From NCBI RefSeq assembly GCF_014268595.2, contig NZ_CP077091.1, forward strand, positions 1,386,501-1,450,500: a stretch of DNA of 64,000 bases, given 5' to 3'. Below the pieces are notes generated by a model, which did no database searches, was not told the origin of the DNA, and was given only the letters and a program-made list of their open reading frames with translations. Made by a program: the position numbers and the translations under genes. The stretch's first letter is position 1, and each line of letters opens with the position of its first letter. The stretch comes from Pseudomonas hamedanensis (GTDB taxonomy: Bacteria > Pseudomonadota > Gammaproteobacteria > Pseudomonadales > Pseudomonadaceae). Positions 59,530 through 60,366 of the stretch are shown here, piece after piece.

Positions 59530-59889
59530 TTATTTGGCGATTTCGACGTTATCCAATGCCTGATTCACCGCGATTTCGCCAAGCATCACCACCTGGGCGA
59601 TGCCCAGCAGGGTCTTGCGGCGCGGGTTGTCGAGGAGCGCGGCGAAGTCGTAGAGCATGGTGGTGGCCGAGCCGAGTGATTCACTGGCGTTGGCGAGCAG
59701 TGATTCGGTGTCGTATTGCGGGTTGGCGAGGAACATCGGTTCCGGGGCGCTGGTGCTGGCGAGGACGTCGGCGGGGCCGAGGTGGTGGTCGAGGGCGCGC
59801 TCGGCGGCTTCGTGAAGTTTTTTTGAATCGAGGGATTCGTAGGGGGATGCCGGATCTGTTTCTGGCGGGTTGGGCGTGACTTTGAACAT
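59530..59889 (-). CDS. DUF6124 (formerly DUF3077-type) family protein
   Basis: Small protein of 119 aa. The conserved opening MFKVTPNPPETDPASPYESL, the SKKLHEAAERALDHHL helix and the closing helices with the ALDNVE ending match a family that is multi-copy in fluorescent pseudomonads, of unknown role. AGGAG before the ATG at 59889 sets the start. The 5' leader of this gene folds into a multibranched structure (59922-60012). It is followed by the effector gene 138 bp downstream on the same strand. Confidence 0.85.
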   Translation of the reverse strand: MFKVTPNPPETDPASPYESLDSKKLHEAAERALDHHLGPADVLASTSAPEPMFLANPQYDTESLLANASESLGSATTMLYDFAALLDNPRRKTLLGIAQVVMLGEIAVNQALDNVEIAK

Positions 59890-59921
59890 GGTGAGCTCCT
59901 GATTCTTCATATGAAGCGACC

Positions 59922-60012
59922 CCCATCACTCGCAGATAATGGGTGGCAGCTATGTGCGGGTCTGCAAGACCGGGAAATCAGGAACCCGGCAGACCCGAAG
60001 GTCTCCCGCACA
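59922..60012 (-). promoter_or_regulatory. Multibranched structured leader of the DUF6124 gene
   Basis: On the minus strand a closing stem UGUGCGGG/CCCGCACA (60012-60005 with 59960-59953) encloses three hairpins: AGACC-UUCG-GGUCU (60004-59991), CCGGG/CCCGG (59989-59970, 10-base loop) and GUCU/AGAC (59970-59960). A further hairpin, CCCAUUA/UGAUGGG with an 8-base loop (59943-59922), lies 33 bases before the start codon. The UUCG tetraloop and four-way geometry are typical of a functional RNA. Could be a riboswitch-like leader, protein-binding element or small RNA. The remaining 370 bp up to 60374 hold no gene. Confidence 0.65.
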
Positions 60013-60270
60013 GAGCCGCCATTAAGCGGACACGAACGAGCGTCCTATGGCAGGGCTATGCGTCTGATTTTCCGGCGGGCTTGCAGACCCGATCACTGAT
60101 GGCAGTGACGGGAACCAAGTTACGGAGGGCGTGCCAGACGCACAAGCCGGCGGATTCTGGCTTAGTCGTAGGTAACGGCGCAAGGCGTTGTAGCCCGTTG
60201 CTGATTACTGGCGCGCTGTTTAAACATGATGGGTGTTTTCTGTTTATCTGGCAGTGAATGGGCTGACGCA

Positions 60271-60366
60271 TTCGCGAGCAAGCCCGCTCCCACAGGGGAT
60301 CGCGGGCTGGTCTGGGATTGCAGGTGTCAGGACTGGCATCTTCGCGAGCAGGCTCGCTCCCACAGG
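60271..60366. repeat. Two REP elements in the same orientation
   Basis: TTCGCGAGCAAGCCCGCTCC at 60271 and TTCGCGAGCAGGCTCGCTCC at 60341, each followed by CACAGG, 70 bp apart. Both point the same way, unlike the inverted pairs elsewhere. Located just after the arsH stop codon on the minus strand, so they probably shape the 3' end of the ars transcript. Confidence 0.82.

Follow-up and report, generated by a model that had tools for sequence, protein, structure and literature searches.

A C4-family antisense RNA upstream of a DUF6124 gene in Pseudomonas hamedanensis and its coevolving chromosomal relatives in Pseudomonas

The stretch of 64,000 nucleotides of Pseudomonas hamedanensis DNA analysed here (the window) carries a C4 RNA on its minus strand, directly upstream of a gene for a DUF6124 protein. 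By covariance model, the element belongs to the known C4 antisense family of phage P1 (RF01695) and is no new class of leader. Because the b′ loop of C4 is complementary to the ribosome-binding site of DUF6124, this RNA likely represses DUF6124 translation, as in phage P1; we put the probability of this reading at roughly 85%. Judging from its copies, the cassette has multiplied on Pseudomonas chromosomes.

The Rfam scan of the window returned a single gathering-level match, RF01695 (antisense RNA C4) at 60026–59939 (-), with 78.9 bits against a gathering threshold of 45, an E value of 8.5e-14 and model positions 1–87 of 87 covered. The fold of 59889–60012 scored better than those of dinucleotide shuffles, with a z of -2.88, and 1 of the 200 shuffled sequences did equally well. 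Both results confirm the structured element that an earlier note on this DNA had placed on the minus strand, proposing a comparison with Rfam, and both agree with its view that the stems are unlikely to be due to chance, the Rfam match being by far the stronger evidence. The boundaries were off: C4 starts at 60026, 14 nt upstream of the 60012 given in the note, and the supposed 8-bp closing stem is in fact the 17-position helix P1. The UUCG-capped stem described there is stem P2. The last hairpin (59943–59922) was seen correctly, but it lies outside the C4 core and shares 5 nt with the 3′ end of the C4 model; it ends about 32 nt before the start codon (33 nt according to the note), and its loop presents a2. 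As to the interpretation as a leader RNA, a conserved structure does precede DUF6124, but an antisense RNA fits better than a plain cis leader, since the loops of C4 are complementary to the leader and the ribosome-binding site, as in phage P1. The idea of a conserved cis-RNA new for this protein family is superseded by the match to RF01695: C4 and c4-a1b1 were already tabulated in 2010, C4 for Proteobacteria and phages (excerpt of PMC2864571). The coordinates of all features are listed in Table 1.

Table 1. Features of the C4–DUF6124 cassette in the window.
Feature	Position	Strand	Basis
Conserved block upstream of the promoter-like site, including the 17-mer CCAGAATCCGCCGGCTT at 60160-60144	60144..60175	-	
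Putative promoter-like site, TTGTGC-17 nt-TAACTT	60117..60145	-	alignment position
Upstream hairpin with a1 (60091-60080) and b1 (60075-60064), copies of the C4 target sites	60064..60109	-	
C4 antisense RNA, stems P1/P2/P3	59939..60026	-	RF01695 78.9 bits, stem covariation
C4 helix P1, 17 positions	60021-60005 with 59960-59944	-	
C4 stem P2 (UUCG hairpin)	60004-59991	-	
C4 stem P3	59990-59969	-	
b′ loop of C4, predicted antisense to the Shine-Dalgarno region	59975..59987	-	13 pairs with 59905-59893, covariation
a′ of C4	59961..59968	-	complementary to a1 and a2
Hairpin presenting a2 (59936-59929) in its loop	about 59922..59943	-	sequence; predicted in the 59889-60012 fold
b2 target containing Shine-Dalgarno AGGAG (59900-59896)	59893..59905	-	
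DUF6124 gene, 119 aa, predicted target	59530..59889	-	PF19619 68.4 bits, cutoff 27

Read 5′ to 3′, the cassette consists of the conserved block, the promoter-like site, a1/b1, C4, a2, b2 and DUF6124, which is the layout of phage P1. Complementarity to C4 extends over 12 of 12 positions of a1 and 11 of 12 positions of b1. The start codon of DUF6124 follows C4 by 49 nt, and the C4-to-start distance is nearly constant among the loci compared (median 50 nt, 5–95% range 43–56). At 183 of 234 loci, a2 sits in a hairpin loop whose stem has 4 bp or more. When 96 distinct upstream regions are aligned (97 of the 147 loci allowed anchoring), the promoter-like site keeps its position; a strict sigma-70 consensus scan gave no sites, this one included.

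Within the conserved block, the 17-mer CCAGAATCCGCCGGCTT (up to one mismatch) is found at 12 places in the P. hamedanensis genome, 11 of them 103–129 nt before a C4, while no C4 was found at the twelfth. Of the 119 genomes of the genus, 55 contain it (control matches total 2), and a C4 follows it at 35 of the 41 loci fetched for it (11 of 12 in the own genome and 24 of 29 in other genomes). The 17-mer may be a regulator site or merely part of the duplicated cassette. A short upstream coding region over the block was rejected, as there is no consistent ORF among the copies. Upstream of the cassette, the window also contains two diverged 37-nt direct repeats of REP-like look (60260–60296 and 60330–60366, 81% identity).

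In the window C4, a′ is complementary to a2 and b′ to b2, at the DUF6124 ribosome-binding site. The b′ strand forms 13 uninterrupted pairs with its target, 3 of them G-U (-19.7 kcal/mol), and a′ matches a2 over 8 positions with one G-U and an exact run of only 5. By analogy with phage P1, one transcript would carry a1/b1, C4, a2/b2 and DUF6124, and RNase P would release C4 from it. The free RNA would then pair through a′ with the a2 hairpin and through b′ with the Shine-Dalgarno sequence, so that DUF6124 would be shut off on its own transcript and, if C4 acts in trans as in phage P1, on other transcripts with fitting sites. In phage P1, C4 represses the icd-ant mRNA, and the P1/P7 mechanism, with RNase P processing, is described in excerpts of PMC12197685, PMC8198154, PMC5320573 and PMC8546580; the processed RNA of about 77 nt acts in trans (excerpt of PMC5320573).

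The stems of C4 were compared in 69 distinct C4-plus-leader sequences, comprising the window, 53 DUF6124 relatives and 15 other loci of the same genome. Stem cells are paired in 88.5%, against 80.4% in shuffles, and the compensatory changes proposed as a check in the earlier note are present: 185 cells are changed on both sides, where shuffles give 62 (sd 10) and slid registers no more than 28. The signal is carried by helices P1 (paired in 96.1% of cells) and P2 (97.4%), with double changes in 14 pairs; P3 is misaligned (17% of cells pair in helix 3 and 63% in helix 4) and was left unjudged.

Covariation also links the loops with their targets. For the 161 of 175 loci with a start codon at the expected place, and with identical C4s removed, the b′ of each C4 was paired with positions -28 to +3 of its own and of permuted start codons. 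Within the own genome (n = 17), cognate pairing reached -15.4 kcal/mol against -10.7 for permuted pairs (z -7.4), and z was -26.2 in the genus (n = 102) and -13.2 in the class (n = 27); none of 5000 permutations matched the cognate value in any of these sets. The own target was ranked first by b′ in 5 of 17, 30 of 102 and 16 of 27 cases, respectively. For a′, cognate pairs were better than permuted ones both with the leader (z -3.5 in the own genome, -9.6 in the genus, -4.5 in the class) and with the upstream region (z -8.2, -21.2 and -11.4). Pairing of b′ with the upstream b1 is weak (z -5.6 in the genus, -4.8 in the class) and, in the own genome, no better than permutation (z -0.4; 1753 of 5000 as good).

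In an extended set with relatives, comprising 234 loci and 200 distinct b′/leader combinations (L309, L311 and L313 were left out because C4 or the start could not be placed), Watson-Crick b′/leader runs of at least 7 occur in 130 of 200 combinations, against 2.8% of shuffled pairs, and runs of at least 8 allowing G-U occur in 171 of 200, against 23%. Exact a′ runs of at least 7 to a2 are present at 216 of the 234 loci. When combinations are anchored at CCU in b′ and AGG in the leader (n = 118), the next five positions pair in 93, 97, 93, 91 and 71%, compared with 40, 48, 42, 45 and 41% in a shuffled control treated by the same procedure, and A-U, U-A, G-C and C-G all occur at each of the first four of these positions. 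A stepwise switch is exemplified by CCUGAUU:AAUCAGG in the window, CCUGGUU:AAUCAGG with a G-U pair in L262, and CCUGGUU:AACCAGG in L274. At L265, L277 and L327 the pairing reaches the start codon. As the loci share descent, these counts do not stand for independent events. On this comparative evidence b′ and its target have changed together, and cognate pairs fit better than permuted ones.

The same covariation would be expected of a purely cis-acting leader, in which b′ folds onto the Shine-Dalgarno sequence or is released with each nascent transcript and a free antisense RNA is irrelevant, since C4 and its target share a strand, with C4 coming directly before the target. Folded alone, 59889–60012 does reach its minimum energy with b′ paired in cis to the Shine-Dalgarno sequence. 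Cis pairing, however, does not need a separate C4 fold with a 17-position helix P1 kept by compensatory changes, and C4 is processed to a separate RNA in phage P1 and in Acinetobacter baumannii (excerpt of PMC5320573); we therefore consider a leader acting in cis only improbable. When C4 and leader are co-folded, the minimum-energy structure contains no b′/b2 helix and keeps the stems of C4. The energy models do not settle the form of the C4/leader complex.

The 17 C4s of the own genome have 17 different b′ loops. Of the 16 cognate pairs, 8 combine a b′ run of at least 8 (G-U allowed) with an exact a′ run of at least 7, a joint criterion that 2 of the 240 non-cognate pairs of this genome also pass. 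One of these two joins the window C4 to the L005 leader. With its own leader the window C4 fails, because the exact a′ run is short (5), although b′ pairs over 13 positions. Ranked by two-site energy, the cognate target leads for 7 of 16 C4s and is never below rank 6; seen from the targets, the cognate C4 leads in 8 of 16 cases and is never below rank 10. Weak own-genome pairs, with b′ runs of 4–6, are those of L009, L011, L016 and L017. As predicted from complementarity, the specificity of C4 is strong on average and partial rather than absolute.

The P. hamedanensis genome contains 17 C4 matches, 16 of them above gathering, and 18 DUF6124 matches. Fifteen of the 17 C4s stand before DUF6124 genes, and 16 of the 18 DUF6124 genes are preceded by a C4, two of them in tandem behind a single one. 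The possibility raised in the earlier note that the element is a mobile REP-like repeat found away from DUF6124 is ruled out by this distribution; dispersed copies independent of DUF6124/C4 genes were not found in this genome, and the related repeats near the cassette are separate from it. At L003, C4 heads a DUF3077-like ORF (assigned by clustering with a DUF3077 member), and at L012 no recognised target ORF follows. The DUF6124 genes without C4 lie close to the sRNA PrrF (L024, C1 near 259111) and to P10 (L035, 4036532).

Across the genus, C4 is present in 110 of 119 genomes and DUF6124 in 95 of 119, with at least 20 C4 copies in 46 of the 119; the C4 search scored no more than 33 candidates in each genome. 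Some genomes are rich in C4 and poor in DUF6124, for example G009 with at least 33 C4s and 2 DUF6124 genes. Among 280 other gammaproteobacterial genomes (281 including the own), C4 was found in 21 and DUF6124 in none. The mention in the earlier note of similar leaders before other Pseudomonas copies proved correct: C4 lies within 400 nt upstream in 76 of 80 close DUF6124 relatives on Pseudomonas contigs, and about 550–610 nt upstream in the other 4. Among the best 30 DUF6124 loci by Pfam score in the genus sample, 19 have a C4 and 11 have none just upstream.

C4 is not tied to DUF6124 alone, as it also precedes other gene families. At 98 C4-selected genus loci with a placed start, the ORF after C4 is DUF6124/DUF3077-like in 50 cases, of a type of about 52 aa in 27 and Bro-N-like in 9 (assigned by Pfam and PHROGs for one member, L045); 8 more belong to a 90-aa family, and 4 fall outside these groups. 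In several Pseudomonas genomes the target slot is taken by a chromosomally encoded, antirepressor-like Bro-N protein about 175 aa long (L045, L047–L049, L052 and L055). Outside the genus the ORFs after C4 are diverse; one clusters with the Bro-N type, and several presumably resemble phage antirepressors, as judged by eye.

These antirepressor-like ORFs, the Bro-N type within the genus and the lack of a recognised target ORF at L012 would also suit functionless C4 modules left in the chromosome by old prophages. Such remnants are very unlikely in view of the stem and antisense covariation across the genus, the purifying selection on DUF6124, the constant spacing, and the occurrence of DUF6124 in only 1 of 50,697 phage records (near one end, at 61–405 of 22,689 bases) and in no plasmid record searched. 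The range of ORFs found after C4 would suit an immunity module of phage origin that the chromosome has adopted. Least probable of all is a riboswitch, protein-binding leader or other new cis-RNA class sensing a signal unrelated to antisense pairing, which would likewise place a conserved fold before a gene family but is contradicted by the match to an antisense RNA family and by the loops, which are the variable part of the RNA and change along with the ribosome-binding site, where a ligand pocket would be expected to stay constant.

The search for homologues of the DUF6124 protein gave 1821. Crude dN/dS values of the window gene are 0.12 against L250, 0.26 against L258 and 0.24 against L253, and such values below 0.3 argue for what looks like a real, conserved protein. 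Residues M1, K3, P6, P8 and P9 are kept in 58 of 58 aligned members (window 59889–59863), while the linker that follows varies freely; they lie ahead of the helical hairpin predicted for the protein. The AlphaFold2 model is confident only for a two-helix hairpin (mean pLDDT 78.4, pTM 0.49); Foldseek found no match to it at E ≤0.001 in PDB or BFVD, and an assignment of function from the fold, which offers nothing beyond this hairpin, was abandoned. No PHROG match was obtained for DUF6124, and its profile is probably related to the DUF3077-like profile (hhalign probability 93). Downstream of DUF6124, the segment 57197–59430 (-) encodes a Tle1-like T6SS phospholipase (PF09994) and a DUF2931 protein. 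The order C4–DUF6124–Tle1-like is kept in G016, and DUF6124 precedes a Tle1-like gene also in G011, where a transposase-like insertion (by eye) follows C4; a functional link between the two genes was set aside, these cases being too few.

By covariance model, the RNA described here is of the same family as C4 of phages P1 and P7 (RF01695, with c4-a1b1 as RF03163), and it shares with them the order a1/b1, C4, a2/b2, ORF and the position of b′ over the ribosome-binding site. Unlike in these phages, C4 of Pseudomonas is chromosomal and occurs in many copies per genome, and the a1/b1 region of the window remains below the Rfam c4-a1b1 threshold (27.8 bits against 46.7). The target, DUF6124 instead of the icd-ant antirepressor operon of phage P1, is a difference of target and not of RNA family. 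The C4-like Group 1 sRNAs of A. baumannii are likewise numerous chromosomal copies with variable a′ loops; excerpts of PMC5320573 report 21 of them, which its authors believed to be the first large set within a single genome, and RNA-seq that suggests processing. Their targets are not identified in these excerpts, whereas most own-genome copies here precede DUF6124 and fit their own leader.

In type I toxin-antitoxin systems, small ORFs occur as paralogues, and the translation of each is opposed by an antisense RNA of its own. The C4–DUF6124 pairs resemble them in this respect and differ in that C4 is encoded upstream and in the same direction; a type I system would further require DUF6124 to be toxic in the absence of C4.

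In the open-licence literature searched, no account of C4–DUF6124 pairs was found and no paper names DUF6124. The family of the RNA has been described before; its expansion on chromosomes throughout the genus, with targets that coevolve, is undescribed within the scope of these searches. Whether Pseudomonas has domesticated the immunity RNA of phage P1 we judge to be evenly balanced. Under this proposal, up to tens of chromosomal C4 cassettes, many of them C4–DUF6124, would each have a largely private, coevolving code, with one promoter-proximal signal shared by many species, and would form a modular self-silencing family that could silence incoming DNA with a matching cassette. With C4 as its antisense RNA, DUF6124 gains a likely regulator and mechanism, and a textbook phage antisense RNA becomes one of the more widespread structured RNAs on Pseudomonas chromosomes. 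The many matched loop–target pairs are a natural data set on how specificity changes without loss of pairing, for example through G-U intermediates, and the dozens of copies per cell provide data on the limiting of cross-talk.

Terminator-like hairpins between a1b1 and C4 are found in 66 of 219 distinct spacers, against 0.6 in simple shuffles. An attenuator in the present cassette was dropped from consideration, as such a hairpin is absent from the window and occurs at 1 of 17 own-genome loci. Where the hairpins are present, pairing of C4 with a1/b1 might steer them. Among L036–L064 and L096–L123, terminator-like hairpins with T-runs occur in the last 85 nt before C4 at 21 of 28 loci outside the genus and, within it, at 26 of 27 loci with an ORF of the 52-aa type; of the 15 own-genome loci of the NPP/DPP type, 0 have one.
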